DNA of 54,359 nucleotides from a virus. The stretch covers positions 1 through 54,359 of the IMG/VR virus record IMGVR_UViG_3300023296_000483, one strand, 5' to 3'. The position numbers and the translations under genes are program-made. The notes under the pieces were generated by a model. It did not search any database, had not been told where the DNA came from, and saw only the letters and a program-made list of their open reading frames with translations. Of this stretch, positions 11,225-52,177 are shown one piece after another (the first letter of the stretch is position 1; the number at the start of each line of letters is the position of its first letter).

Positions 11225-11346
11225 CGTTTGATATTCTTTTTCCAAATATAATATCCAAACCAAGCCAATGCGCCAAGTGCAGCCAATCCGATAGCAGCTA
11301 CGCCAGCAAGCATTGATAATATCATAACAGGGTCTAATCCGTGCAT
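11221..11346 (-). CDS. Small membrane protein (41 residues)
   Basis: The minus strand encodes MHGLDPVMILSMLAGVAAI and so on: one long hydrophobic segment rich in Ala, Gly and Leu, then FGYYIWKKNIKR with a basic end. It is a plausible single-pass membrane protein. The ATG lies inside the 3' end of the upstream glycosyltransferase-like gene, in another frame. Holin-like size, but with one segment and no further evidence I would not call it a holin. Confidence 0.6.
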   Translation of the reverse strand: MHGLDPVMILSMLAGVAAIGLAALGALAWFGYYIWKKNIKR

Positions 11347-12182
11347 AGTTTTTCCTTTAATCGATTCCAAGGTTCACCAGCAGCAATCTCGTCTATTGTC
11401 CACTCAGTGTAACTAATCTTATTTATCCACTTATCACGTGGAAACAATAACGGTGTCTCTATGTGTTCCAACTCAGTAATATCCATAGCGACAGGATAAG
11501 CCATATTATGATGTGAGACAAAAGCGGGAACACCATTAAGAACACTAACCACAGCAGGACCACTACTATGGCAAATGACACAGTGAGCATTGCCCAAAGT
11601 ATCTTCAAAATCAAAGTCATCATACGATCCTTTTAAATGTTTCGGTTTATCAATAATAACATCGTTAAACTCTTTTATATAATGTGGTGATACGTGAAAA
11701 CGTGGATGGGGTCGTAGTATAATCTTGCGGTCAGTATGTGCACGAACCTTGCGACATATACTAATCATCCATTCGTCCATAGGCGGCATACCTTTCCATT
11801 GTTCACTAAACCCGTGCTGACCACAAATAATAATATTGTCGCCAGTTGACCAAGGTTTGGCTTCAAGTCCAAGGCGTGTTGGTCCATTAGCCGTAGCCCA
11901 AATAGCATCGGCATTAATGCCATTAATCCCGACCTTCCACGTTTCATTACGTTTCAAGCACCCGACTTCCAATACAATAACCGGCTTTTTCTGTGAACGA
12001 TAATGTTTCCAAATCTGTTCATTTGGTTTCATTCTGCCGTTCCATAGTTGCGACCATATAACAGCAACGTCCGCATCCATATTGTTATGAACGACATCTT
12101 CGCCTTTTAGCGACTTAATAAATGCGTCAAATACTGGTCGCCCAGCCATACTTGAGTGTTCAGGGAATACTGCTATTTTCAT
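11334..12182 (-). CDS. GT-B-like glycosyltransferase paralogue 1
   Basis: 282 residues. The family pattern is a strand such as NIIICGQHG, then IILRPHPRF, then a Ser-rich strand and helix CHSSGPAVVSVLNGVPAFV, and a closing YTEWTIDEIAAGEPWNRLK. This order (phosphate-binding HP motif, then SxxxVE-like helix and GxP loop) resembles capsule and Kdo-type GT-B transferases. Four plus-strand genes downstream share it. The start codon lies 5 nt after a TAAATA box, part of a palindromic divergent promoter shared with paralogue 2. Substrate unknown; virion, host surface or DNA glycosylation are all possible. Confidence 0.65.
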   Translation of the reverse strand: MKIAVFPEHSSMAGRPVFDAFIKSLKGEDVVHNNMDADVAVIWSQLWNGRMKPNEQIWKHYRSQKKPVIVLEVGCLKRNETWKVGINGINADAIWATANGPTRLGLEAKPWSTGDNIIICGQHGFSEQWKGMPPMDEWMISICRKVRAHTDRKIILRPHPRFHVSPHYIKEFNDVIIDKPKHLKGSYDDFDFEDTLGNAHCVICHSSGPAVVSVLNGVPAFVSHHNMAYPVAMDITELEHIETPLLFPRDKWINKISYTEWTIDEIAAGEPWNRLKEKLCTD

Positions 12183-14526: not shown

Positions 14527-15183
14527 ATGATGAAAAGAGTTGGTAACTATTGGATGCCCGATGAGGAAAATACCCCACATTTTTTAACCGAGTTTGAGAA
14601 TAAAGGTGGATGGCAGTTGAATAAACTACATCTATTTATAGACACTATGAAAGCTAACAATGCCCCATTTAAAGTAGCCATCGATTGCGGCGCACACGTT
14701 GGTTCTTGGACAAAAGTGTTGGCAGAGAACTTTGACCATGTATACGCATTCGAGTTGAACCCCGATACATTTGAATGTCTTGAACGTAATATTACAGATT
14801 GGGGATTAACCAATGTGACGTTATTAAACAAAGGCGTCGGCGACGTTAACGAGCAAGTATCAATCACAAAAGATGATATATGGAATGAATGCACTGGATC
14901 ATATCACGTCAATGTAGGTTGCGAAGGTGACCTTGATGTTGTTCCTGTTGATTCAATGGAAATCAAAGACGCATCATTTATTAAACTTGATGTTGAGGGT
15001 TATGAATATAGAACACTTGTGGGATTAAAAGAAACCGCAAAAAGCAATCCATATATTATGATCGAATATAAGGTAAAACTTATTAACCGTTTCGGCGGCG
15101 ATGACCCGCTTCAACTGTTAAAATCTTGGGGATACGAACACGCTATTAAAAAAGGCAGCGATCATTTATATCGGAGAGGTTAA
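14527..15183 (+). CDS. FkbM-family methyltransferase
   Basis: 218 residues. The SAM-binding signature is AIDCGAHVGSWTKVLAE (near residue 50), followed by VYAFELNPDTFECLERNI. The FkbM hallmark FIKLDVEGYEYRTLVG is near residue 155, then YIMIEYK. FkbM enzymes are O-methyltransferases often found in glycan clusters. A GGAGAT precedes the ATG pair at 14527/14530. The stop overlaps the next ATG. Confidence 0.85.
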   Translation: MMKRVGNYWMPDEENTPHFLTEFENKGGWQLNKLHLFIDTMKANNAPFKVAIDCGAHVGSWTKVLAENFDHVYAFELNPDTFECLERNITDWGLTNVTLLNKGVGDVNEQVSITKDDIWNECTGSYHVNVGCEGDLDVVPVDSMEIKDASFIKLDVEGYEYRTLVGLKETAKSNPYIMIEYKVKLINRFGGDDPLQLLKSWGYEHAIKKGSDHLYRRG

Positions 15184-16133
15184 TGGCAAAGGTAGCCATA
15201 ATGCGACGAACGGGTAAACCGAAAGATTCCAAACATCAAGGAATATGGAAAGTTCACGCAGGAAATATTATCGAAGAAGTATTTCAAGGTATTGAAGATG
15301 GGATTAAAGCAGCGGGCGATACCCCCGTTATATACGACGATAAGTTTATTATTCCACAAGAAAATAATGTAGTTATATTTGGATACGGTAGACGAGAAGA
15401 TAATAATCCCAAGCATTGGTTACAAAACTGGAAGCACAGTATCATCACTAAAGTAGAAGCACGCGGCGGTAAGGTTTTTTGTTGGGATGGTGGATTTTTT
15501 AAAAGCCTACGCAACTTCAAGTATTTTAGATTTGGAATGAATAGTCCGCTGCGTAACGGCGTGTTCTTAAATGAAAATAGCACACCTGACCGCTGGAATA
15601 TGCTACAGAAAGAGTTCAATATTCCATATAATATGGATCGTCGTAGTGGCAATCGTGTTCTTATTTTGGCACAACCGTTCGAAGGCTTCTCGATGAATAT
15701 GGTAAAAATGACCGACATTTTTGAAAGACCCGTAACGTTGTTTCAAAAACTAGGCAAACAAGTTCAAATAAAACCGCACCCCAATACCAAACGTGCTGAA
15801 TATGATGAGATTAGTAAGTTTTGTGATACTAAAAAAATAACGTTAATCCCAAAAGAAACGCCGTTATATGAAACGTTTGATGATGTATGTCTTACGGTAA
15901 CATTCAACTCTACCGTAGCAGTAGAAAGTGCGTTATATGGAATCCCGACGATAGCAATGGATAGCTTGTCACACGCTTATCCCGTGTGCCATAATAATGT
16001 AAACAACGCAGTATCAAACTATGAAATCTTTGACCGTAATCAGTGGATACACGACTTGTCGCATACGATGTGGTCAGCCAACGAACTGGCAACTGGTGAA
16101 CTATGGAATAGATTTAAGGAATATAACGCATGA
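15183..16133 (+). CDS. GT-B-like glycosyltransferase paralogue 3
   Basis: 316 residues, the longest of the five paralogues. Landmarks: VLILAQPFEGFSM, QVQIKPHPNTKR, VTFNSTVAVESALYGIPTIA, and the ending HTMWSANELATGELWNRFK. The KPHP and NSTVAVES elements are the clearest match to Kdo/capsule-type GT-B enzymes. Start overlaps the FkbM stop (TAATG). Confidence 0.7.
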   Translation: MAKVAIMRRTGKPKDSKHQGIWKVHAGNIIEEVFQGIEDGIKAAGDTPVIYDDKFIIPQENNVVIFGYGRREDNNPKHWLQNWKHSIITKVEARGGKVFCWDGGFFKSLRNFKYFRFGMNSPLRNGVFLNENSTPDRWNMLQKEFNIPYNMDRRSGNRVLILAQPFEGFSMNMVKMTDIFERPVTLFQKLGKQVQIKPHPNTKRAEYDEISKFCDTKKITLIPKETPLYETFDDVCLTVTFNSTVAVESALYGIPTIAMDSLSHAYPVCHNNVNNAVSNYEIFDRNQWIHDLSHTMWSANELATGELWNRFKEYNA

Positions 16134-17765: not shown

Positions 17766-18025
17766 ATAAAGATAAAGAAAAGTTTTGGGATGCGTTAAAA
17801 GCCCCGCCACCCCGATCATGGCGACAGACTATGGACGATATATTGAAAACGCCCGTAAAGCTTGGAACAAACAATCGTGGCAATGATATTATTACCCAAC
17901 GCAGTCAATGTCTGGATCAAACGGCTTCCCGAACGTGTGATGGTATTGAGCCTTCCAATACTCTGAGTAATCCGCATAAAGTTTTTCACGGTATATCATC
18001 GGACCCAACGTATGATGAAGATTGA
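17762..18025 (+). CDS. FW-motif small protein, tail antisense to a glycosyltransferase
   Basis: 87 residues from ATG 17762: MNKDKEKFWDALKAPPP, the FW-family opening, but without the CxxC pair. The last 44 codons overlap the 3' end of the minus-strand gene at 17892 and have unconvincing composition. A true protein may have been shortened or extended by the rearrangement that placed the two genes tail to tail. Confidence 0.45.
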   Translation: MNKDKEKFWDALKAPPPRSWRQTMDDILKTPVKLGTNNRGNDIITQRSQCLDQTASRTCDGIEPSNTLSNPHKVFHGISSDPTYDED

Positions 18026-18644
18026 ATGGCATTGATTTAGCCAACTCGTATTCTTCAACTAAAAAGTTAAACTCAATCGGCAATGCACCAATCTCGGAAT
18101 CCTCTAACCATTCAAAACGATGAAGGAACTGCGGCGTTGATTGTTCTACGCTGCCTTTCGTTAACACACTATTGGACGGATGTGCGCAGTTATATATAAC
18201 CGCACTTGACCAGTTTTTACGTGGATATGTTGACTGCGGTTTGCCACCCATCTTCGGATCAGCTTTCGGTATGTAATCGTGTCGGACGCATTGCACTGCA
18301 TAGTTTGAATCATATAAGTTAAACATTTCATGAATATCACGTGTAATCAGCATATCACAATCAAAGAAAATCCCGATACCTGTAAATCCCATTAATGTTG
18401 GCACCATGAACCGTGTGATTGAAAACTGTGTAGAACCATTCGGATCAACGGGACGTTCAAATATACCATACGCTAACAGTTCGTCACGCACAATCGGAAT
18501 GATTTTTAAATCCATTGTGGTTTTGGAACGAATGCTATGTGCTAACATTTTGGCGCATTGGTCTTCGAGTGGGTCATACCCGATGAAAACCACGTATTCT
18601 GCGTCTTTTGCTTCTTCTAATCTATCAAAATAATATGTGGACAT
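17892..18644 (-). CDS. GT8-like glycosyltransferase
   Basis: 250 residues. It starts MSTYYFDRLEEAKDAEYVVF, with a central GIFFDCDMLITRDIHEMF holding the DxD metal site (residue 95 region) and a PRKNWSSAVIYNCAHPSN acceptor-side motif, both typical of GT8-type sugar transferases. The C-terminus contains FNLHHTLGPM. It faces the PLA2-like gene across a 55-bp divergent promoter region. Its ATG is 4 nt after a TAAATA box. Confidence 0.75.
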   Translation of the reverse strand: MSTYYFDRLEEAKDAEYVVFIGYDPLEDQCAKMLAHSIRSKTTMDLKIIPIVRDELLAYGIFERPVDPNGSTQFSITRFMVPTLMGFTGIGIFFDCDMLITRDIHEMFNLYDSNYAVQCVRHDYIPKADPKMGGKPQSTYPRKNWSSAVIYNCAHPSNSVLTKGSVEQSTPQFLHRFEWLEDSEIGALPIEFNFLVEEYELAKSMPFNLHHTLGPMIYREKLYADYSEYWKAQYHHTFGKPFDPDIDCVG

Positions 18645-20271: not shown

Positions 20272-20691
20272 ATGACCGAACACACTTTTGAACTTGACTT
20301 CACCGCCGTTAAAATAGATGCAACCAATCCAATGGTATGTGTTATGATTGACGATGTGTGGCATTCACTGAACACGGATATCACCTCGATTGATCCGTTA
20401 AATCCAACCACTATTTCCATTACGCTTGATTTGGCGGATGGCGCACATACCCTTGCAGTCACATTTATGAATGATGAGTATACCGATTCCGATAACGACA
20501 GAAATGTGGAATGGCTTGGAACCCGAATCGATGGCAATGCTATGCGTTGGAGAACTATTGATTTTGGCGGTGTTATTCATACGGCTGATATTGATAATGA
20601 AGCTACTGGGAGCTGGTGGAAGTTTGTTATTACCCACAACGCCGAAGCTAAGTTTACGTTTACCACACCATATGATTACAATGCCGTTTAA
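20272..20691 (+). CDS. Carbohydrate-binding-module-like protein
   Basis: 139 residues, all-beta by appearance. The stretch AHTLAVTFMNDEYTDSDNDR followed by NVEWLGTRIDG resembles the calcium-dependent xylan-binding type domain (FxND...DRN pattern). GAAGGATATT provides a ribosome-binding site. Placed among sugar transferases it could bind or present glycan on the virion. Not certain. Confidence 0.55.
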   Translation: MTEHTFELDFTAVKIDATNPMVCVMIDDVWHSLNTDITSIDPLNPTTISITLDLADGAHTLAVTFMNDEYTDSDNDRNVEWLGTRIDGNAMRWRTIDFGGVIHTADIDNEATGSWWKFVITHNAEAKFTFTTPYDYNAV

Positions 20692-21680
20692 GACCAAGAT
20701 TTGAGTAACTGCTGTTGAAGACTATTGATAAGATAGTTTCCAAACTCGTTAAAGAAATAGTCACGGTTATATTCAATATCATCATGGCAATAGTGCTGTA
20801 GTTCATACATAGACTTCGCTGCCATCGTTTTGCCAATCATCAGCCAGTTAGCGTGAAGCGCATCGACCCCACGTTTGCTATTATCTTCAGCATCATAATC
20901 TTCATTGAACATATTGTCAAACGTTTTAAACCCGTAACTCTTTATATCTTGTAATGCGGATTGGTGACCTATCATAATAAATGGATGACCCGCCACCATA
21001 GCATTAAAAGTTTTTTCAGTAATAATACCGTAGCGTTCATAGTATTGTGATTCACAAATGATACTGAATAGACTGGTATTGAAGTTCTTCTTTAACGTGA
21101 GTAAGTTCAATAGATTATCGTAATGCTTGTTGTATTCGGTATAGGAAAAGCCGGGATACTTTAACTCGATTCCCATATGCTGATAGCTACTATTGCCGGG
21201 ACAATCTTTAATCGCACCGTATATCGCTCGTCGATGAGGCTTATCAATCCTATTCATGCAAAGGAAATTATCTTCATAATCTTTGTGTTTGAATTCTTCA
21301 CGTAATACATCTTCAGATTGCTTATATGCTTCCCATAAGTTATATTGGTGCGAACTAAACTCCACGACTGTAAAGCTGTTTGTTTGGTTCCAATCGGCAG
21401 CTAACCCACATGGCCAAGTAATCACAATGAGTTGATTTAAATCAACCTTGTTAAAATAATGACTGTGTATTTGGGTTAGTTCACGTGGAAATAAACTTGT
21501 GTCATCTATAGTAAGCATATCTTGTAATATTAATATAAGTCGAAAGTCTTTTAAATGAAACCGACAATCTTCTATTTCGGGCATATCGACTTCCCATCCA
21601 TCTTCGGTGATTGGATACTTCAGTGCGGCGTCTACTATTAGACTGTCGGGGAATATTTGTCTTATTTTTTCTATGAACAC
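20688..21680 (-). CDS. Exostosin/fucosyltransferase-like glycosyltransferase
   Basis: 330 residues. The key block is SLFSIICESQYYERYGIITE, followed by KTFNAMVAGHPFIMIGHQSA, the E(K)TF-AxxxxxPxI pattern of GT10/GT47-like donor-binding domains. LCMNRIDKPHRRAIYGAI opens the C-terminal domain. The start is GTG at 21678-21680, 4 nt after a TAAATA box. Tail to tail with the carbohydrate-binding-like gene, overlapping by 4 bp. Confidence 0.65.
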   Translation of the reverse strand: MFIEKIRQIFPDSLIVDAALKYPITEDGWEVDMPEIEDCRFHLKDFRLILILQDMLTIDDTSLFPRELTQIHSHYFNKVDLNQLIVITWPCGLAADWNQTNSFTVVEFSSHQYNLWEAYKQSEDVLREEFKHKDYEDNFLCMNRIDKPHRRAIYGAIKDCPGNSSYQHMGIELKYPGFSYTEYNKHYDNLLNLLTLKKNFNTSLFSIICESQYYERYGIITEKTFNAMVAGHPFIMIGHQSALQDIKSYGFKTFDNMFNEDYDAEDNSKRGVDALHANWLMIGKTMAAKSMYELQHYCHDDIEYNRDYFFNEFGNYLINSLQQQLLKSWS

Positions 21681-23415: not shown

Positions 23416-23440
23416 GGCGTCAACTTACACTGAGCCTTGA

Positions 23441-23468
23441 GGGGGTGGCAGAAATGCTGCCCCTTTCT
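23441..23468 (+). terminator. Intrinsic terminator after the AAA ATPase gene
   Basis: GGGGGTGGCAG pairs with CTGCCCC around an AAATG loop (one bulge), then TTTCTT. Confidence 0.6.
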
Positions 23469-23477
23469 TATGTATGG

Positions 23478-23483
23478 TAAATA
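23478..23483 (+). promoter_or_regulatory. Late box, leaderless type
   Basis: GTAAATACTATATG: box, 4 nt, ATG at 23488. Confidence 0.55.
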
Positions 23484-23487
23484 CTAT

Positions 23488-24528
23488 ATGTTCCCAGTAC
23501 AAAATATTAAATACGCCAACGTTGAGATAACATCAAGGTGCAATGCAGCCTGTCCATTTTGCCCCCGTAACTTTAATGGATACGGTGTTCGAGATGGTTT
23601 CCCTATAATGGATATGACATTGGATCAATTTAAAACAATATTCGATCAGATACTTTCCAATGAAAATATGGTATTGGATATGTGTGGAACATACGGCGAT
23701 CCATGTGTATCGCCATATTTTGTGGAGATTGTGGAATATGTAAACGAAAAATATCCGCATGTTGAAATAGAAGTTCATACCAATGGATCGTTACGTTCGC
23801 CTGACTGGTGGAAAAACTTAGCCAGTAAAAACCTTAAAGTGACATTTGGTATCGATGGGCTTGAAGATACTCATAAGATTTATAGACAGCAAACATTCTG
23901 GAATAAAATCATTGAAAATGCACGTGCGTTCAATGATGCTGGCGGATATGCAACTTGGCAGTTTATTGAGTTTGCCCATAATCGACACCAACGCAATGAT
24001 TGTAAAATATTAGCAGAGAAATATGGGTTCAGTGAATTCAAAGTGTTTGATGATAACCGAAACGAAGGTGCGGCATATACGCCCATGGGTGAACCTTTTT
24101 GGATTGGCGACAATCCCGAACCACTTGTTCCACTAGATGAATATCTTAAACTAGAAAAACAAATGCAACAAAACTACGAAATAGACAATCAAATGATATT
24201 GTCAACATCGGTTGACTATGAAACAATCCAATGCAAATCAATCGATAGTAAAATGATATATGTGGCGGCGAACGGTGACGTGTGGCCTTGCTGTTGGCTT
24301 GGTGGATCATTCCCGCATACATACGACAGCGACTTTGGATATGAATTAAAGGATTTGAAACTTAATATCAATGGATATAAAAGATCGATGGTAGAAATAA
24401 TGAATGAGTTTTTAAAGATTAATAATGCATGGGATTCAAAATCACTTACACGGTGTGGGCATGAGTGCGGTCGGTGTGCGGATGGCACGGGTGGCGTTGA
24501 GCAAGGGATGGAAATCCAATGCTTTTAA
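23488..24528 (+). CDS. Radical SAM/SPASM protein
   Basis: 346 residues from ATG 23488 (an upstream ATG at 23470 is in frame). The [4Fe-4S] SAM cluster motif is RCNAACPFCPRNF (CxxxCxxC); DMCGTYGDPCVSP is the glycine-rich SAM-binding strand. A C-terminal SPASM-like region has CKSIDSKMIYVAANGDVWPC followed by CW, and a final CGHECGRC. It should be a full-length enzyme, unlike two radical SAM remnants elsewhere in the window. Substrate unknown; the start overlaps of the following SGNH gene suggest a shared pathway. Confidence 0.85.
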   Translation: MFPVQNIKYANVEITSRCNAACPFCPRNFNGYGVRDGFPIMDMTLDQFKTIFDQILSNENMVLDMCGTYGDPCVSPYFVEIVEYVNEKYPHVEIEVHTNGSLRSPDWWKNLASKNLKVTFGIDGLEDTHKIYRQQTFWNKIIENARAFNDAGGYATWQFIEFAHNRHQRNDCKILAEKYGFSEFKVFDDNRNEGAAYTPMGEPFWIGDNPEPLVPLDEYLKLEKQMQQNYEIDNQMILSTSVDYETIQCKSIDSKMIYVAANGDVWPCCWLGGSFPHTYDSDFGYELKDLKLNINGYKRSMVEIMNEFLKINNAWDSKSLTRCGHECGRCADGTGGVEQGMEIQCF

Positions 24529-25211
24529 TGACAAACGGTTGTAGTTTTACCGAAGGGGTTTATGATAACTTTAATAAATCGGATTCATGGCCATATCAGT
24601 TACAGCGAAAATATGATTGCGATTTAGACCAACTAGCAAAAGGCGGTGGTTCAAACGCCCGAATATTTAGAACAACGATTGAATATCTTTTGGATAATGA
24701 TCCCGATATGGTTGTTATCGGATGGACACAGCACGAAAGATATGAGCTACCGTATCACGATGGGGATATGATACGCATTATGCATTCAATGGCATTACCG
24801 GAGAGAGAAGCATTTGGCGATATAGTTGAGATGCGTGAGTTTTATTATAAAAACTGTTATAATAACTTGACTTTACTATACCAAACCGTGTATTATATAA
24901 GGACTGTACAGCGTATGTTAGAAGACAGAGATATCCATTATCTGATGTTTAATGCTTTAGAAAATGACTACTTGCATCAGTTTGAAGATGATAATCATCC
25001 TATTACTAAACAAATGCAACCACCTTATATGGGCATCGATAAGATAAACAATGATAAGTGGTTAATGTGGGGTTCAAGTATGGAGCAATACTTAGAGACA
25101 TATCCAAAAGCCGATGATTACGGGCATCCTGATATCGAAGGGCATACAGTCTGGACAGATTTGATATACAAGGATTTAAATGCCAAAAGCGAAAATTATA
25201 GTAAACGATGA
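24519..25211 (+). CDS. SGNH/GDSL-like hydrolase
   Basis: 230 residues. The N-terminus MLLMTNGCSFTEGVYDNF carries the block I Ser; MVVIGWTQHERYELP is the next core strand; DDYGHPDIEGHTVW supplies the terminal His. A second protein of this type lies at 34398. Such proteins are common in marine phage glycan regions and may be acyl- or sialyl-esterases. Overlaps both neighbours. Confidence 0.65.
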   Translation: MLLMTNGCSFTEGVYDNFNKSDSWPYQLQRKYDCDLDQLAKGGGSNARIFRTTIEYLLDNDPDMVVIGWTQHERYELPYHDGDMIRIMHSMALPEREAFGDIVEMREFYYKNCYNNLTLLYQTVYYIRTVQRMLEDRDIHYLMFNALENDYLHQFEDDNHPITKQMQPPYMGIDKINNDKWLMWGSSMEQYLETYPKADDYGHPDIEGHTVWTDLIYKDLNAKSENYSKR

Positions 25212-26202
25212 ATGCAATTGTAAGGTTACTGGTTTAGATACCTCTATACGAAAAAAGTTATACAACAAGTTCAAATATGAAGTACCGGGTGCGTTCCATA
25301 TCCCTTCGGTCAAACTAGGTCGGTGGGATGGGAAGATTGCATTCTTTCAAATGGGTGGCGGAACATATATCAATCTGCTTCCTGATATTCTTGAAGATAT
25401 TGAGAAAGAAGGATATACAGTCGATCTTGATGACCGCCGCAAATACGATTCATATGTTGAACCATTTGAAAAAGTAAAAGAAGATTCATATAAAGATTTC
25501 ATCTGGCCAGAGGGTCATCCCGTAGCTGGAACACCCGTGGCGGTTCGTGACTATCAGGTAGAGATTATCAATGGTTTCCTAGAAAACCCCCAAGGTGTCC
25601 AAGAAATCGCCACAGGGGCTGGAAAAACGCTTATAACCGCTATTCTATCGCATAAGTGTGAAGACCGAGGGCGAACCATTGTTATTGTCCCGAATAAGTC
25701 ATTGGTCACGCAAACGGAAGAAGACTATATCAATATGGGTCTAAACGTGGGCGTCTATTACGGTGATCGTAAAGACATCGGATTTCAGCATACTATATGC
25801 ACTTGGCAAAGCCTTGGTGCACTTATGAAGAAGACAGCTGCCAAAACCGAAGGCATTACTATCGAAGAGTTTTTATACGGGGTAGTGGCGGTTATTGTTG
25901 ATGAATGTTTGGATGAAAAAACATTAGTGAGCACATCGAAGGGGAATGTGATGATTAAAGATATTAGCGTAGGCGATATTGTGCTGACACTCAACGAACA
26001 AACCGGTGCCATGGAGTACAATCGCGTTATGAAACGACACGAGAACCTCGCATCGTCTAATGCGGAAGACATGTACGAGATTACGATGGACGATGATACC
26101 GTGTTGGAGATAACTGGTAATCATAAAATAAAAACTACTGAAGGATGGGTTCAGGCGAAGCATCTGACTATTAATCATGATATAATTTCGTACTTTGCAT
26201 AA
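25180..26202 (+). CDS. uvsW: UvsW helicase, N-terminal fragment with N-intein
   Basis: Residues 1-242 are the start of an SF2 helicase: the N-terminal DNA-binding part (VKLGRWDGKIAFF), the motif before Walker A (VAVRDYQVEIINGFL), Walker A (EIATGAGKTLITA), TIVIVPNKSLV and motif II broken after VDE. The intein begins at the next Cys. UvsW unwinds branched DNA and rewinds forks in recombination and repair, and clears R-loops. The break inside the DECH box makes the fragment inactive before splicing. The joined protein would be about 490 residues, shorter than T4 UvsW. Confidence 0.92.
   Translation: MPKAKIIVNDECNCKVTGLDTSIRKKLYNKFKYEVPGAFHIPSVKLGRWDGKIAFFQMGGGTYINLLPDILEDIEKEGYTVDLDDRRKYDSYVEPFEKVKEDSYKDFIWPEGHPVAGTPVAVRDYQVEIINGFLENPQGVQEIATGAGKTLITAILSHKCEDRGRTIVIVPNKSLVTQTEEDYINMGLNVGVYYGDRKDIGFQHTICTWQSLGALMKKTAAKTEGITIEEFLYGVVAVIVDECLDEKTLVSTSKGNVMIKDISVGDIVLTLNEQTGAMEYNRVMKRHENLASSNAEDMYEITMDDDTVLEITGNHKIKTTEGWVQAKHLTINHDIISYFA
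25906..26199 (+). other. N-intein (98 residues) of UvsW split intein
   Basis: Starts CLDEKTLVSTSKGNVMIKDI (block A) with DISVGDIVL and has block B as DTVLEITGNHKIKT. This is a canonical split position, after block B, unlike the TerL, UvsX and NrdA inteins in this genome. Confidence 0.9.
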
Positions 26203-26205
26203 ATA
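26200..26205 (+). promoter_or_regulatory. Late box in the UvsW intein gap
   Basis: GCATAAATACTATG overlaps the stop codon of the UvsW N-fragment. A bulged hairpin (CACCGC/GCGGGTG, about 26215-26233) follows, then the endonuclease start 46 bp from the box. Confidence 0.5.
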
Positions 26206-26251
26206 CTATGAACACACCGCACTAAAGCGGGTGTATTTATGGGATATTTAG

Positions 26252-27124
26252 ATGGCAAAAAAAGTTGATTGGAACAAAAGGTTGGAAGACGCAGGATTTG
26301 AGATTACAGTGACACAGATGGCAGATGGGTTGTTCGAAACGTCCACCGGTATTGTAGAGAAGGGTTACCTGCTATGGAATAGATTCCGAGCAGGTTGGGA
26401 CATTGATATTGCATATCACCAAAATCAAACATTGCGTGCCGAATATATTTCTAAACGCAAGTCTTCGGCGGCAAACCTTGGCGGAAGTGAATGTCAGAGA
26501 CAGCACGGCGACAAGATAAGAAAAAACCTTAACACTGGTACGCCGTGGAATAAGGATAGCCATACCGGGACTGTTCCGTGGAATAAAGGATTGACGAAGG
26601 AGAATGATGATAGGTTGATGAAATTATCCACCGATAGAATCGGGAAAGGTAATCCGATGTACGGTATTTCACCTACCATCGCACAGCGACACGCATCATC
26701 TGTTCGCGTCAAGGAAAATATTAGGACTGGGAAATTCACTCCTAATATTCATAATAGTTGGACACACTGGCAAGTAGAATACAACGGAATGAAATATAGA
26801 TCATCGTGGGAGGCTGCATGGCACTCGATTAACAGTGATTATGAATACGAGAAAATTAGAATACCATATATGCATGATGGTGTAGAGCACATTTACATAG
26901 TTGACTTTCACAATGAAGCACTTGGTATACTGATAGAGATAAAGCCTACCGAGTGTATGAATGATAAATCCCGTGCCAAGGAAAAATATGCTACGGAATG
27001 GGCTAATCAGATGGGATGGGGATACGCTATTGTATCGCAGTCGTGGTTCAAGCATAATATAGATGAGATAATGCTAACTGATTTACCAGACAGCATAAAG
27101 GATAAGGTGAGTAATATACGATGA
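26252..27124 (+). CDS. NUMOD-type / PD-(D/E)XK-like homing endonuclease inside uvsW
   Basis: 290 residues. The middle has NUMOD3-like DNA-binding repeats: GTPWNKDSHTGTVPWNKGLT and the following KGNPMYGISP. The C-terminal half looks like a PD-(D/E)XK fold: RSSWEAAWHSINSDYEYEKI, then IYIVDFHNEALGILIEIKP with Asp and the ExK pair, and YAIVSQSW. It lies between the two intein halves, and its stop overlaps the start of the C-intein gene by 4 bp. Unrelated in sequence to the endonucleases in terL and uvsX. Confidence 0.78.
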   Translation: MAKKVDWNKRLEDAGFEITVTQMADGLFETSTGIVEKGYLLWNRFRAGWDIDIAYHQNQTLRAEYISKRKSSAANLGGSECQRQHGDKIRKNLNTGTPWNKDSHTGTVPWNKGLTKENDDRLMKLSTDRIGKGNPMYGISPTIAQRHASSVRVKENIRTGKFTPNIHNSWTHWQVEYNGMKYRSSWEAAWHSINSDYEYEKIRIPYMHDGVEHIYIVDFHNEALGILIEIKPTECMNDKSRAKEKYATEWANQMGWGYAIVSQSWFKHNIDEIMLTDLPDSIKDKVSNIR

Positions 27125-27225
27125 AAATGAAATCTAAGATAATAATAAAAAAGCCAGCAATAACATACAATCTTCATGTGGAGAATAACCACAATTATGT
27201 GGCGAACAACGTAGTCGTATCGAAC
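27121..27225 (+). other. C-intein (35 residues) of UvsW split intein
   Basis: Block F is TYNLHVENNHNYVANN and block G is VVVSN followed by Cys+1 of the extein CHGAK. The penultimate residue is Ser instead of His, as in the TerL intein. Confidence 0.9.
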
Positions 27226-27972
27226 TGTCACGGTGCAAAAGCTGATATGCTGAAAAATATTCTAACGGGTCCAATGGCACATATTCCTGTTCGTTGGGGA
27301 TTGACGGGAACCGTTCCGAAAGAAGAGTTAGCAAAGGCTGGTATCCTATGTGCTATCGGTCCTGTATTGAATGAGGTATCAGCAAAATCACTTCAGGAGA
27401 AAGGAGTGCTTGCAAATTGCCATGTAAATGTGGTACAATTAATAGACATTAAAGAATACCCGAACTACCAAAGCGAACTGAAATATTTGTTAACAGATAA
27501 CGAACGTCAGAACTATTTGGCGGGTCTTATTGCAACGGTAAGTAAAAGTGGTAATATGCTTGTCCTTGTAGACCGTGTTCAGGCGGGTAAAGATATTGTA
27601 GTAAAACTAAACGATAACGGCTTTGATGCTATGTTCGTAAGTGGTGCTACAAAAGGCGATAAGCGAAAGGAAACCTATGACGAGATTAAAACAGGAACTA
27701 ATAAGATTATCGTTGCCACCTATGGCGTTGCTGCTGTGGGTATCAACATACCTCGCATCTTTAATCTTATGTTGTTGGAACCGGGCAAGAGTTTCATTCG
27801 TGTTATCCAGAGTATTGGGCGGGGTATCCGTAAAGCGGAAGACAAGGATTTCGTGCAGATTTGGGACGTTACGTCAACGTGTAAGTTTGCGAAGCGGCAT
27901 CTTACCCAAAGGAAGAAATTCTACAAAGAAGCGCAATATGAATATTCAATCGAAAAAGTGGACTGGCAATAG
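27121..27972 (+). CDS. uvsW: UvsW helicase, C-terminal fragment with C-intein
   Basis: After the 35-residue C-intein, 248 residues resume at CHGAK, completing the VDECHGA box. WGLTGTVPK is motif III (usually SAT/TGT). The second RecA domain has LVLVDRVQAGKDIV, NKIIVATYGVAAVGINI (motif V) and VIQSIGRGIRK (motif VI with its Arg finger). The ribosome-binding site AAGGTGA (27104-27110) is inside the endonuclease gene. Confidence 0.93.
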   Translation: MKMKSKIIIKKPAITYNLHVENNHNYVANNVVVSNCHGAKADMLKNILTGPMAHIPVRWGLTGTVPKEELAKAGILCAIGPVLNEVSAKSLQEKGVLANCHVNVVQLIDIKEYPNYQSELKYLLTDNERQNYLAGLIATVSKSGNMLVLVDRVQAGKDIVVKLNDNGFDAMFVSGATKGDKRKETYDEIKTGTNKIIVATYGVAAVGINIPRIFNLMLLEPGKSFIRVIQSIGRGIRKAEDKDFVQIWDVTSTCKFAKRHLTQRKKFYKEAQYEYSIEKVDWQ

Positions 27973-46573: not shown

Positions 46574-46951
46574 ATGGCATTTTTCCCTACAGCAGCACAA
46601 GCAAGAGAACGTGGACAAGGCAATCGAGTAATACTCGAAGAAGTTATGCTTCTCGAAATCGCAGTAACTGAAGCTATTGTCGCAGGAAATCTAACCATTG
46701 ATTTCGGCGGCGCACTAACCGATTCATCAGTATCAGCCACAACCATTAGCGGAACATCAGTATCTGCAAGCACAATGACAGCAGAGAATGCTACGGGTCA
46801 ATCATACTACAATGTATGGAAAGGCACGATTACTGATGCAGCAAAGACAGAGCAAATGCGTGAAGTGATTGTATGGTTCGAAGGTAAGGGCTACACTATT
46901 TCTCGTAAGTCATCTAATAGCACAACATTCTATTGGCAGCTGACGTGGTGA
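46574..46951 (+). CDS. Probable structural protein conserved in marine T4-like phages
   Basis: 125 residues. A Ser/Thr/Ala-rich beta middle and the ending MREVIVWFEGKGYTISRKSS, then TTFYWQLTW, follow a pattern I recall from marine phages. Confidence 0.65.
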   Translation: MAFFPTAAQARERGQGNRVILEEVMLLEIAVTEAIVAGNLTIDFGGALTDSSVSATTISGTSVSASTMTAENATGQSYYNVWKGTITDAAKTEQMREVIVWFEGKGYTISRKSSNSTTFYWQLTW

Positions 46952-46959
46952 TTATTATA

Positions 46960-46990
46960 TTGACTTGACTATATCCAAATATGGTATAAT
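46960..46990 (+). promoter_or_regulatory. Extended -10 promoter, start codon at about +1
   Basis: TTGACT (46960-46965) and TATGGTATAAT with the TG extension (box 46985-46990). ATG 46996 follows 5 nt later. The spacer of 19 is long, so the extended -10 probably dominates. Confidence 0.55.
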
Positions 46991-46995
46991 AGTCT

Positions 46996-47730
46996 ATGTT
47001 AAAATCAATTTACAATTACAAACCCATCAATAGGAAGACAGTAAACGGCAAGCGGCATTATGTGACGCCTGACGGTACTCCCGTTGCATCAGTAACTACC
47101 ATCTTATCAGCTACCAAACCACAAGCGGATTGGAAGAAGCTAAACGATTGGAAAAAAAGAACCGATGCTATTCACGGCAAAGGCACTGCACAAAAAATTA
47201 CCAAGGAAGCAGCAGACCGTGGAACTAAAATGCACACATATCTTGAAGAATATTGTATCAATGATAGCATCGAAGAAACAATCAAGAAACAAAAATCACC
47301 ACGTGAAACAATCCTAACATCACAAGGATATAAGATGGCGAATATCGTCATTGATGAGGGCTTGAATAAACTAGATGAATGCTGGGCAGTAGAGGCACCA
47401 TTATATTACAGTGGATTATATGCTGGTACAACCGATGCTGTCGGTATATTTGAAGGAACTGAATCTATTGTTGACTTCAAACAATCAAACAAACCAAAGA
47501 AACGTGAATGGATTGACGACTACTTTATGCAACTATGTGCATACGGAGAAGCCCACAACGATATGTTCGGGACGAATATTCGCAGTGGTGTCATTCTAAT
47601 GTGTACAAAGGATTTGATGTTTCAGCGATTTGATCTGACAGGTGCCGAATACGACAAGTATATGCATATGTGGTGGGATAGAGTGGATCAATATTACTCT
47701 CACTTGCGTAAACTGCAATCGCTTCAATAA
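46996..47730 (+). CDS. RecB-like PD-(D/E)XK exonuclease
   Basis: 244 residues. VTTILSATKPQADWKKLNDW and AADRGTKMHTYLEEYC (motif I Glu/His region) precede LYAGTTDAVGIFEGTESIVD with DFKQSN (catalytic Asp and DxK) and MQLCAYGEAHND (the QxxxY motif of RecB-type nucleases). Probably processes DNA ends in recombination or packaging. The last residues (RKLQSLQ) overlap radical SAM sequence in another frame, so the native C-terminus may have been replaced at a recombination joint. Confidence 0.82.
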   Translation: MLKSIYNYKPINRKTVNGKRHYVTPDGTPVASVTTILSATKPQADWKKLNDWKKRTDAIHGKGTAQKITKEAADRGTKMHTYLEEYCINDSIEETIKKQKSPRETILTSQGYKMANIVIDEGLNKLDECWAVEAPLYYSGLYAGTTDAVGIFEGTESIVDFKQSNKPKKREWIDDYFMQLCAYGEAHNDMFGTNIRSGVILMCTKDLMFQRFDLTGAEYDKYMHMWWDRVDQYYSHLRKLQSLQ

Positions 47731-48241
47731 TAATAACGTCAAGGGTCGAGTTGAGTTTGCATACGACTTATATAAGCCTTGGTCTGAACAAATCAGCTTT
47801 GGGCATATCGGTATTATCGGTGGCGAACCATTACTGCATCCAAACTTAAAACATTGGGTAGAAGGTATACGTTCTCTATGGCGTGAACCATCTATTCTTA
47901 TCACTAGTAACGGTACTCAAATAAACAAACATCCTGATTTATTCGATTTTTGTATTAAGAACAATGCCGTACTAGAGATAAGTTTTCACGAAGAAAAAGT
48001 TGATGCGTATATATGGGATGAAATAGAAAAGTTCAAACGTCACGGAACTAACTGGCAAACAATCCACACGATTAATAAATTTCCTGACCGAGATGGCAAT
48101 GAAATAGAATTAGCTAATTCTCAATTAATGTGCGATGAAGGATTTATAATTCAAATAACTGACGCACACACCTTCCAAAATATACAAATAAAAGAGTGGG
48201 TAAACGGCAAACCTATGCCGTACGACTTCGGGCTTCTTTAA
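47705..48241 (+). pseudogene. Radical SAM gene remnant, 5' truncated
   Basis: In this frame CVNCNRFNNNN matches the end of a CxxxCxxC cluster motif, but the first Cys is missing. IGIIGGEPLLHPNLKHWVEG is the SAM-binding GGE motif, then EPSILITSNGTQI and VLEISFHEEKVD. The homology stops near 48225 (GKPMPYD). The 5' end runs into the exonuclease gene and the 3' end into an inverted segment carrying the missing C-terminus. An ATG at 47642 is in frame but in exonuclease sequence. Confidence 0.75.
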
Positions 48242-48444
48242 TCTATCAATATCATCAATACTTGTGTGGGGGATGTATTGATATAGTTTATCCCATCCTC
48301 GCCATACCCGTATTGTTCAAAATAGTTGGTTACTGATGGCATAAACCCGCACTTGTATAGTTTCCCATCATAAAAAGTATGCGAGTTTTTCATACCACAT
48401 ATACATAATGCGATTATTGTGGTATGTGGGTCGTGTCCTTCATA
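48238..48444 (-). pseudogene. Inverted C-terminal piece of the radical SAM gene
   Basis: The minus strand reads YEGHDPHTTIIALCICG, then MKNSHTFYDGKLYKCGFMPS and SVTNYFEQYG. This is a typical SPASM-like end (CxC...HxFYxGKLYKC). It would naturally continue the plus-strand remnant after GKPMPYD. It has no good start codon. Its stop overlaps the plus-strand stop, so the joint lies within a few bases of 48230-48240. Confidence 0.75.
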
Positions 48445-48490
48445 CTATAAATTTGGCAAAGTAAATACAGATTTTAAATAACTTTTTTGA

Positions 48491-48496
48491 TAAATA
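48491..48496 (+). promoter_or_regulatory. Late box, leader type
   Basis: TTGATAAATACTTC, then GCGAGG as ribosome-binding site and the GTG start at 48518. Confidence 0.6.
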
Positions 48497-48517
48497 CTTC
48501 AAAGCGAGGATTTATCA

Positions 48518-50077
48518 GTGGCTATTACGCAAATTTCAAGAATTACGCATCGGAAAGGTACAAACGAAAACCTTCCACAACTTGCCGTTGGCGAGTTCGG
48601 ATGGTCTGTGGACACACGACAGTTATATATTGGTAACGGCGGCGACGATGCTCCTTCGATTCAAAACATTCAAATCCTAACAGAAAACTCAAGTGTCGGT
48701 GAAACATCAAGTTACACCTATGCCGATAGTGATATTGGATATACAGCACAAACTGGCGTAAGCTCTAGTTCTCCTACCGTGCGTTCATTACAGGATAAAC
48801 TAGACGACTTCGTTACCGTTCGTGATTATGGCGCACTGGGCGATGGTGCTACCGACGACACTGATGCGATTAACCGTGCATTAACCGATATATTCGTTAC
48901 GCAAACATTCCAAGCCACACGCCGCAGATTGTTCTTTCCCGCAGGAACATATATTGTGCAAACCGATGCAATCAGAATACCAGCATATGCTACACTCGTA
49001 GGCGAAGGAACACGTTCATCTATTATTAAGAGAACTGGTTCGGCTATCACTAATGTAGCACAAACCGCCGATAGTAAAAACCAAATAGGTGCAAACATCG
49101 CTACTGCTGGTGCGACACAACCACGTGATATTACCATTATGAATATGGTATTTGAAGCTGGTGCCGATACAGATTGCTTCCTTGTAGACCAAGTTAATAA
49201 TATGCATTTCGATAACTGCACATTCATTGGTGATAAATCAGCATCTATTCCAACGACACTAGGTACAGGCAAAGCATGTGTGCGCATAGAAAGCCTTGGC
49301 GCAAAGTATTCCACTAATATTAAGTTCAACAACTGTATTTTTGAAAATAACTCGTATGGTGCACAAATCGATGATGAAGTTCGTTCAGTTGTGTTTTCTG
49401 GATGTCGCTTTGAAAACTTATTCAAAGGCGCAGTGATTGGACTTGATGATTCAAGTACAACCCCAAAGGGTGTTAAAATCATTAACTCAACCTTTGATAA
49501 TGTGTATGACCGTGGTATCCACGTTTATGACGGCAAGGTTTCCACCGCATTCAACTTCTTTAATGACGTTGGCAATAGTGGCGCAGGTGCTGGCTCACCA
49601 GCCACGCCTGTTATTGATTTCCTTTCTGGCGATTGCTATAGTATCGGTGATATATTTGAACGTTCGAACGCAGATGACGCTACCTTTGCTCGCATTGAAA
49701 ACAATGGCGCAGCATCGTTGTCATTTGACCAAGAGCGTATGAAGTTTGGTAAACTAGAAAGAACACCGGGCGCAACTATATCATTAGTTGATACAGCATC
49801 AGCTATCGTAACCGCAGGGTTGTCGTTCAGTGATACCAACGAAAAGTATGTCGAGATTGAATATACTATTACACGAGGTTCAGCCGTGCGCAATGGTGTC
49901 CTTCGTATCACACACGATAGTTCAAACCAAGTGCTTAGTGAAGAATATGACGAAAACAATGGCGATGTTGGATTTAACTTCAGCCTTGTTAATGCCGCTG
50001 GCACAACAACATTATATTACTACACTGATACGGGTGCCGATGCGACTATGACATACAGCATCCGCACATTTGTATAA
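48518..50077 (+). CDS. Tail fibre/spike with pectate-lyase-type beta helix
   Basis: 519 residues with GTG start. The N-terminus ISRITHRKGTNENLPQLAVG, then EFGWSVDTRQLYIGNG is a fibre attachment module seen in many phage tail proteins. TVRDYGALGDGATDDTDAIN followed by LFFPAGTYIV is the hallmark opening of pectate-lyase superfamily right-handed helices. Repeated strands (FNNCIFENNSYGAQIDD; FSGCRFENLFKGAVIG) build the helix; the C-terminus is a beta domain. It would bind, or cut, host surface polysaccharide. Confidence 0.85.
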   Translation: MAITQISRITHRKGTNENLPQLAVGEFGWSVDTRQLYIGNGGDDAPSIQNIQILTENSSVGETSSYTYADSDIGYTAQTGVSSSSPTVRSLQDKLDDFVTVRDYGALGDGATDDTDAINRALTDIFVTQTFQATRRRLFFPAGTYIVQTDAIRIPAYATLVGEGTRSSIIKRTGSAITNVAQTADSKNQIGANIATAGATQPRDITIMNMVFEAGADTDCFLVDQVNNMHFDNCTFIGDKSASIPTTLGTGKACVRIESLGAKYSTNIKFNNCIFENNSYGAQIDDEVRSVVFSGCRFENLFKGAVIGLDDSSTTPKGVKIINSTFDNVYDRGIHVYDGKVSTAFNFFNDVGNSGAGAGSPATPVIDFLSGDCYSIGDIFERSNADDATFARIENNGAASLSFDQERMKFGKLERTPGATISLVDTASAIVTAGLSFSDTNEKYVEIEYTITRGSAVRNGVLRITHDSSNQVLSEEYDENNGDVGFNFSLVNAAGTTTLYYYTDTGADATMTYSIRTFV

Positions 50078-50094
50078 CCGCATTTAAACAAGTC

Positions 50095-50100
50095 TAAATA
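50095..50100 (+). promoter_or_regulatory. Late box, leaderless type
   Basis: TCTAAATACCTTTATG: box, 5 nt, ATG at 50106. Confidence 0.6.
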
Positions 50101-50105
50101 CCTTT

Positions 50106-50531
50106 ATGTTCAACCTTTCTTCGGAAGAAAGACTTAAATACTGGCGTAGATTTCGTATGGACCTTGATGGCTCCGATACACTTCAATGCTTACAGGATGT
50201 TGCTACTTTATGGTCAACCGCACCTTTAAGTAATCAATACTTTGCAAGCGACCTACCAGAAACTTGGCCAACCGCTTGGGAACTCATTAATGACAATCAT
50301 TATGATGATGTTGGCGTGGCTCTTGGTATATTTTATACAATATTATATAGCGAACTATTCGATAAAAATGATATAATATATAGTGTTTATAAGCTTCCAG
50401 AAGGAATAACCAATACAGTAATGGTTCAAGATTATGTTCTAAATTATGACTATGGGCAAGTAATAAGTAAAGAACAAATTGAAATATTGCCACTATTTCA
50501 ATACGATTCCAAAGACATAGACAAACAATAA
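50106..50531 (+). CDS. Hypothetical protein downstream of the fibre
   Basis: 141 residues, acidic and aromatic (ERLKYWRRFRMDLDGSDTLQ; LPETWPTAWELINDNHYDDV). Possibly a fibre chaperone by position; no sequence support for that. Confidence 0.6.
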   Translation: MFNLSSEERLKYWRRFRMDLDGSDTLQCLQDVATLWSTAPLSNQYFASDLPETWPTAWELINDNHYDDVGVALGIFYTILYSELFDKNDIIYSVYKLPEGITNTVMVQDYVLNYDYGQVISKEQIEILPLFQYDSKDIDKQ

Positions 50532-50569
50532 TCTAATTTATTTTTATATGGAAGTACGTATATCAGGAG

Positions 50570-50578
50570 TGGTATAAT
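50570..50578 (+). promoter_or_regulatory. Extended -10 promoter of the restriction-modification pair
   Basis: TGGTATAAT, with a weak TGGAAG -35 position. An ACAGGAAAAT ribosome-binding site precedes ATG 50610. Confidence 0.55.
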
Positions 50579-50609
50579 AACTATATTAAATAATTACAGG
50601 AAAATAAAA

Positions 50610-51371
50610 ATGAAAAATAAAGGTTTTACTTACGAAGATACAGTTGTAGCTTGCGGCACCTCGCTTATTTCTAGCTTGGGCTTAACTACCGATATGTCAA
50701 TACTCGCAGGTGGCAACTCTAAGAACCACGACTTGTCCATTATGAATACCAAGTCTGGCGACGCTCTCAATCTAGAACTTAAATTAAATATGAATGCTCA
50801 GTTGGGCGGAACATCTATCCAATACAAAACCAGCGATAATTCATTAAACGCAATCAATCCACTTGGTGACAACGTGTTGCCCGTGCTTAATGAAAATAAT
50901 AAAACTGAATCTTATGCAAAGTTAGTCGAATCCGTCAACGATGTTAGTCTAATCAAAAATGACGGGTTTCCGTTTACAGTAGATGTAGAAGCGTGGGATA
51001 AGTTCAATAAGAATCCAATTCGCAAAGATTGCACTACACACGTGAAATACGAAGATTGCACATTCATCAGAAATTATTTGATGTCAAAGGGCGATAACTA
51101 TATTCAAATCGGCGGTCTTGGGCTGTATCACGTCGGTGCTGATACATTAAATTTAGGGACACCGCTTTTTGATGGTCCTAATAAATCTGAGATTGAAACA
51201 AGACCTAGTGGTTCACGCTTGAGCAAGAAATTAAACTTAAAAGTTCGGTCAGTCGGTTTAAGGGTTCAGTATAGACTTACTGACAAAAAATATTGGAAAA
51301 ACTATAAATCGACCGTCAATCTCGACAACCCAGATGATCTAAAAATGATTATAACAAAGATGAAAAAATAA
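50610..51371 (+). CDS. Candidate type II restriction endonuclease
   Basis: 253 residues. SKNHDLSIMNTKSGDALNLE followed by LKLN gives the Asp, then Glu-x-Lys spacing of a PD-(D/E)XK nuclease. The rest is not recognisable, as is usual for restriction enzymes. It sits directly upstream of, and overlaps by one base, a DNA methyltransferase, and has its own promoter. The pairing is the main evidence. Confidence 0.6.
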   Translation: MKNKGFTYEDTVVACGTSLISSLGLTTDMSILAGGNSKNHDLSIMNTKSGDALNLELKLNMNAQLGGTSIQYKTSDNSLNAINPLGDNVLPVLNENNKTESYAKLVESVNDVSLIKNDGFPFTVDVEAWDKFNKNPIRKDCTTHVKYEDCTFIRNYLMSKGDNYIQIGGLGLYHVGADTLNLGTPLFDGPNKSEIETRPSGSRLSKKLNLKVRSVGLRVQYRLTDKKYWKNYKSTVNLDNPDDLKMIITKMKK

Positions 51372-52177
51372 TGAGAAAAGTATTCGAAACGGACAATATA
51401 ACACTTTATCATGGCGATGTTACTGATATCAGTGATGTAAGTTTCACTTCGTTGGTAACGTCGCCGCCTTATGCCGAACAGCGCAAAAAATTCTATAATG
51501 GAGTGAGTGAAGATAAATATCCAGCATGGACAACCGATTGGATGAGTAAGGTAAAGCCGTTGATTTCCGACACAGGAAGTTGTTTGATTAACATTCGTGA
51601 AAATATTTCAAAAGGCGAAATATCAGATTACGTTTTGAGAACACGACTGGCTGTTAGAGAAAGTGGATGGAAAGAATGTGAAGAACTTATTTGGATCAAA
51701 CCAGATGGCCCCCCTGTCGGCAATATCAACCGACCAAGACGATCATGGGAAAGAATTCTGTGGTTTTCTAACACAGGCAAGCCGAACGCATACCCAAAGG
51801 CTAACGGCACATTCTCCAAAAATATCTCGTTTCGTAAACAAGATGTTGGACAATCACTAAAACAATGGGGCAGTGGGTTCACCGATGATAAAGAACCACA
51901 GGCAGGGTTTACCCGATGTAAAGATTATGTTGAAATCTCTGTATCAAATAATGCCAAAAAAGAACATAGCCATCCAGCAGCATATCCAGTGCCATTGGCA
52001 GAATGGATGTTGAAGCTGGTATCAGTAGAAGGGGATACTATTCTTGACCCGTTTTCTGGTAGTGGCACGACAGGGATCGCCGCCGTAAATAATGGTAGAA
52101 AATATATTGGAATTGATAACTCTCTTGAGTATTTGGATATGACAATAGAACGATATAAAAAGATAGGATTAATATGA
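51371..52177 (+). CDS. DNA N4-cytosine/N6-adenine methyltransferase (beta class)
   Basis: 268 residues. SLVTSPPYAEQRKKF holds the catalytic S/DPPY motif near residue 33; the TSPPY form is typical of N4-cytosine enzymes. DTILDPFSGSGTTGIAAVNN near residue 225 is the SAM-binding FxGxG. Motif IV before I is the beta order. IDNSLEYLDMTIERY follows. It would protect DNA from the partner nuclease. The stop overlaps the nrdA ATG. Confidence 0.85.
   Translation: MRKVFETDNITLYHGDVTDISDVSFTSLVTSPPYAEQRKKFYNGVSEDKYPAWTTDWMSKVKPLISDTGSCLINIRENISKGEISDYVLRTRLAVRESGWKECEELIWIKPDGPPVGNINRPRRSWERILWFSNTGKPNAYPKANGTFSKNISFRKQDVGQSLKQWGSGFTDDKEPQAGFTRCKDYVEISVSNNAKKEHSHPAAYPVPLAEWMLKLVSVEGDTILDPFSGSGTTGIAAVNNGRKYIGIDNSLEYLDMTIERYKKIGLI

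Follow-up and report, generated by a model that had tools for sequence, protein, structure and literature searches.

Phage genomes are known to carry DNA inversion switches, for example the tail-fibre switches Gin of Mu and Cin of P1. Radical-SAM cassettes have been described as optional elements in the variable host-recognition cluster of pelagimyophages, which are aquatic T4-like phages (PMC7029224). Here we analyzed a contig of an uncultivated virus with T4-like genes over its whole length of 54,359 bases (hereafter the window), in which pieces of a radical-SAM gene lie on both strands between an exonuclease gene and a tail-spike gene. The locus resembles the Gin and Cin switches in that an inverted segment adjoins a tail-spike gene. 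Unlike them, it showed neither an invertase nor inverted repeats at both joints, the segment is only ~0.2 kb long, and a complete gene results in neither orientation. Its likeness to the pelagimyophage cassettes is drawn from their description; those are added cassettes, whereas the window appears to hold a decayed remnant. We are highly confident that, in this uncultivated T4-like phage, a decaying radical-SAM/SPASM-like cargo pseudogene separates the exonuclease gene from the tail-spike gene. The coordinates of its parts are collected in Table 1.

Table 1. Features of the radical-SAM locus and their positions in the window
Feature	Position	Strand	Description
PD-(D/E)XK exonuclease gene	46996-47730	+	phrog_298 exonuclease, E 2.9e-51
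Open frame with IIGGEPLLHP	47642-48241	+	ends ..GKPMPYDFGLL, then stop
Radical-SAM core remnant	47699-48226	+	covers homologue residues 17-195; start codon, first strand, and first cluster Cys missing
Inverted internal segment	48227-48410	-	SPASM-like start, homologue residues 205 to ~258; right end uncertain, 48400-48421
1-nt frameshift in the inverted segment	48293-48300, near 48296	-	2 nt and a change of minus-strand frame separate homologue residues 238 and 240
9-bp perfect inverted repeat, CATACCACA / TGTGGTATG	48391-48399 / 48418-48426		straddles the right joint
C-terminal tail of the radical-SAM gene, VCGSCPSYYKFGKVNTDFK, then stop	48422-48480	+	in the frame of the core; 37-42% identity to L178/L181 C-termini
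Tail-spike gene	48518-50077	+	pectate-lyase-like fold, Mtd N-terminal domain; PF12708 E 4e-19, PF18454 E 2e-6

Radical-SAM core and its intact homologues

Complete homologues of 292-293 aa were found beside a sliding-clamp gene in the loci L178-L181. The route to them led from exonuclease relatives with nearby radical-SAM genes to an alignment that included a read-through of the broken gene, and from there to a narrower alignment. When the intact L178 protein was compared with the whole window by tblastn, its residues 17-195 matched the plus strand with 45% identity (E 2e-46), and identities over the core ranged from 44 to 45% among the four proteins. The core also matches phrog_13987 (E 3e-7) and positions 46-136 of Pfam PF04055 (E 9e-4), the latter under the curated cut-off because the gene is truncated. 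The GGEP and SNG segments of the core fold and the strands after them are kept, and a plus-strand GGE core that stops at GKPMPYD had already been recognized from the sequence alone. Since the core is still open over 179 codons with no internal frameshift, inactivation must have been recent, or some selection on the core may persist.

Further intact homologues, each with all pieces on one strand, occur in L019, L021, L035, L183, L187, L191, and L194. Across ten aligned intact homologues C15, C19, C22, C205, C221, C269, and C272 (L178 numbering) are invariant; only C15 is missing from the window, and the rest are split over two strands. The CxxxCxxC cluster motif present in all ten is incomplete in the window, where it reads I-TLT-C-VN-C. 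Features that the window has in common with radical-SAM/SPASM-like phage proteins (PF04055; PHROG 13987; the intact IMG/VR homologues L178-L181) are the cluster-motif CxxC in the core together with GGEP, SNG, and EISFH, the Cx10Gx4C of the SPASM-like start, and the C-terminal VCxxCP. Unlike these proteins, the window copy is devoid of the first Cys and the start, its SPASM-like middle is inverted, and it carries a frameshift. Viral contigs scanned with the core alone, and with the minus-strand piece, gave a single match, a sister contig that is described below, and when the alignment of the homologues was run against bacterial and archaeal genomes, in a pattern-limited scan, no relative emerged. 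Among the isolate phages searched, only one clear relative was found, a distant one in Synechococcus phage S-SCSM2R. It is located among glycosyltransferase genes, and this suggests that the intact enzymes may help to modify surfaces or sugars. The window holds a second radical-SAM gene (23437-24528), intact and with a weak SPASM match, that is followed by a DUF6071 gene. We considered it as a donor and rejected it, as it shares only ~24% identity with the homologues and seems to belong to another subfamily.

At the 5' side, the exonuclease is native through DQYY (~47698), and its last ~10 residues (SHLRKLQSLQ, then stop) come from an out-of-frame reading of radical-SAM DNA. The exonucleases of relatives end in ..RVEQYYLLNM or ..RVDEYFTKIAA at the place where the one in the window enters radical-SAM DNA. 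A deletion has removed the exonuclease's own stop along with the start, the first strand, and the first cluster Cys of the radical-SAM gene. The codon position of that Cys (47693-47695) reads ATT and lies inside exonuclease sequence, which agrees with the proposal that the residue was lost where the exonuclease gene ends. The exonuclease has in this way acquired a foreign, out-of-frame tail, which it probably tolerates because relatives have no conserved residues there.

Geometry of the inverted segment

Immediately beyond the core, the minus strand reads MKNSHTFYDGKLYKCGFMP.. over 48238-48393, and its stop (48238-48240) overlaps the plus-strand stop (48239-48241), as had been noted before. 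In tblastn searches of the whole window, L178 residues 205-238 corresponded to minus-strand positions 48399-48298 with 44% identity (E 2e-6; 1.4e-6 for L181). This homology reaches back past the ATG at 48393 to 48399 (CGMKNSH..). Residues 240-248 follow in another minus-strand frame at 48295-48269 with 67% identity (WDKLYQYIP against WQKLFDYIP), and the match of the stretch GWDKLYQYIPHTSIDDIDRLK was reached by one in 2000 shuffles with L178 and by none in 2000 with L181. Owing to the frameshift near 48296, the listed 51-aa minus-strand frame finishes out of frame (..NTSPTQVLMILID). The pattern C-x(9-15)-G-x4-C followed by a further Cys is present, as CGMKNSHTFYDGKLYKC (Cx10Gx4C) on the minus strand and VCGSCP on the plus strand; the domain is graded as SPASM-like only, because Pfam SPASM gives no match for L178. 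The minus-strand stretch YEGHDPHTTIIALCI, upstream of CGMKNSH, was tried as a part of the gene (its DP aligned with SDPEKAYHD) and dropped, because the spacing does not fit and VCGSCP of the plus-strand tail is encoded by this very DNA.

The gene then returns to the plus strand. Homologue residues 268-286 correspond by tblastn to 48422-48478 with 37% (L178) and 42% (L181) identity, followed by a stop. The block is short (19 aa) and its E-values are weak in 54 kb (8.0 for L178, 1.2 for L181). No other ungapped match in the whole window scores as high (38 for L178 and 45 for L181, against 29 and 27 for the next), not one of 1000 dinucleotide shuffles of 48227-48517 attained the tail score, and the position is exactly where the gene end is expected. 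The earlier proposal that the missing SPASM-like end lies on the minus strand therefore stands as far as homology is concerned (E 2e-6), but the real C-terminus is on the plus strand at 48422-48480.

Taken in order, the homology blocks of one intact protein are residues 17-195 on the plus strand, 205-238 and 240-248 on the minus strand, and 268-286 on the plus strand, so that the alignment of L178 covers the plus core, the minus piece, and the plus tail in succession. The left joint falls at ~48226/48227, and not at 48230-48240 as first placed, and the right joint lies between 48400 and 48421. No counterpart of homologue residues 196-204, or of part of 249-267, can be recognized in the window, and ~20 nt net are missing at the joints, judged by length. 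As intact homologues have these pieces on one strand and in one order, and as the C-terminal tail lies beyond on the original strand, the comparison supports an inversion in place of a segment of ~175-195 bp within one radical-SAM gene. The ~0.2-kb inversion proposed in the sequence-only reading is thereby upheld, with collinear blocks, a reversed middle, and a plus-strand tail beyond.

The open frames on the two strands, with their overlapping stops, could also be read as two unrelated functional convergent genes, a short radical-SAM-like protein on the plus strand and a small Cys-containing protein on the minus strand. We consider this very unlikely. The pieces follow one another along a single protein family, in one-to-one order and with no overlap in homologue coordinates; the plus frame runs over part of the exonuclease and offers no start close to the homologous region; and the minus frame is frameshifted. 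An opposed pair conserved in other phages, which the sequence-only reading had named as the finding that would speak for two genes, was not seen, as the sister contig was the only other place of the minus piece among the contigs found.

Decay, switching, and assembly

In the decay that we propose, a radical-SAM/SPASM-like cargo gene once occupied the plus strand, with the exonuclease gene before it and the tail-spike gene after it. Comparison with intact phage homologues shows that a deletion has fused the exonuclease gene to it and that an internal segment of ~175-195 bp is inverted in place, with a 1-nt frameshift in the same segment. These rearrangements may stem from illegitimate recombination or from replication-associated template switching, and the remnant probably yields no active enzyme. 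Simple decay had been one of the two readings offered at first, and the deletion fusion, the inversion, and the 1-nt frameshift seen against intact homologues bear it out.

The other was a reversible inversion switch, that is, phase variation turning the radical-SAM gene on and off. The in-place inversion of a gene segment, and the 9-bp inverted repeat that straddles the right joint, would suit it. However, no inverted repeat longer than 5 bp is common to both joint zones, and 5 bp is about chance level, so the short inverted repeats suggested for both joints did not materialize. Above all, the segment carries a frameshift, and the start and the first Cys are lost with the 5' end of the gene; a segment flipped back would give no working gene, and the other orientation would be equally dead. 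No match to Resolvase (PF00239) or Phage_integrase (PF00589) was detected in the window or the sister contig, both of which may be incomplete, and the controls responded. The orientation is moreover identical on both contigs. A switch is accordingly extremely improbable, and we give equally little credence to the idea that the segment still flips in the population, with a complete copy in other members and the window as the off-state of a small invertible module. The 9-bp repeat may itself be due to chance, given that the window contains 31 such repeats with loops of up to 40 nt, or 0.57 per kb. It was rejected as the cause of the inversion, as its arms would have been direct repeats in the ancestral order and would favour deletion.

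Since the window is a metagenome-assembled contig, we also considered an assembly chimera or artefactual inversion. The sister contig IMGVR_UViG_3300022821_000015 (77,972 bases) has an arrangement identical to that of the window, joints included, with 4 mismatches in 12,522 bp and none in 46578-51780. Identical joints on a second contig exclude an error of a single assembly, and with 4 SNPs in 12.5 kb between the two we hold an artefact to be highly unlikely. Both contigs represent a single viral population and offer no independent evolution.

We therefore return to the decaying pseudogene, which is clear but ordinary and does not imply a new mechanism. It is an example of optional cargo beside phage tail-spike genes decaying via deletion fusion and micro-inversion. 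Gene pieces on both strands would normally enter an annotation as a pair of small hypothetical proteins; in this case the homologues reveal all three lesions.

Genomic context and cargo genes

The slot between the exonuclease and tail-spike genes is empty in many relatives, in which the tail spike directly follows the exonuclease. In L009 and L010, which have a 77% identical exonuclease, it is filled by an unrelated 218-aa gene with no Pfam match. An intact homologue exactly downstream of the exonuclease was found in none of the relatives. At 22 of the 110 homologue loci the exonuclease is preceded by a radical-SAM homologue of the same orientation, directly so in L169 and L191-L193, and in L098 (a contig that ends at the site of the joint comparison) and L178-L182 it stands beside the clamp gene. 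These different places mark the radical-SAM gene as optional cargo. Genes at L009:3001-3972 (minus) and L009:4692-5348 (plus) flank the exonuclease of the closest relative and are absent from those places in the window; with genes on both sides of the L009 exonuclease, the surroundings of the exonuclease emerge as a cargo hotspot. In L019 (1974-2658) and L021 (3281-3989), genes for predicted IscU-like and IscA-like Fe-S assembly proteins separate the radical-SAM gene from the exonuclease.

Elsewhere in the window, a UvsW-like helicase appears split over 25180-27972. Its first part (25180-26202) has UvsW_N, ResIII, and an N-terminal Hint (intein) domain, a TnsA/endonuclease-like gene follows (26252-27124), and the last part (27121-27972) begins with a weak intein C-terminal match and continues with Helicase_C. 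Judged from these domain matches, the arrangement fits the "fractured gene" kind, with a putative split intein and a free-standing endonuclease (Dassa et al. 2009, as cited in PMC7090010). Three sizeable minus-strand frames amid plus-strand genes (11334-12182, 17892-18644, and 20688-21680) have no Pfam match and are possible cargo. Finally, 15183-16133 encodes an alpha-2,8-polysialyltransferase-like protein (PF07388, E 2e-5).
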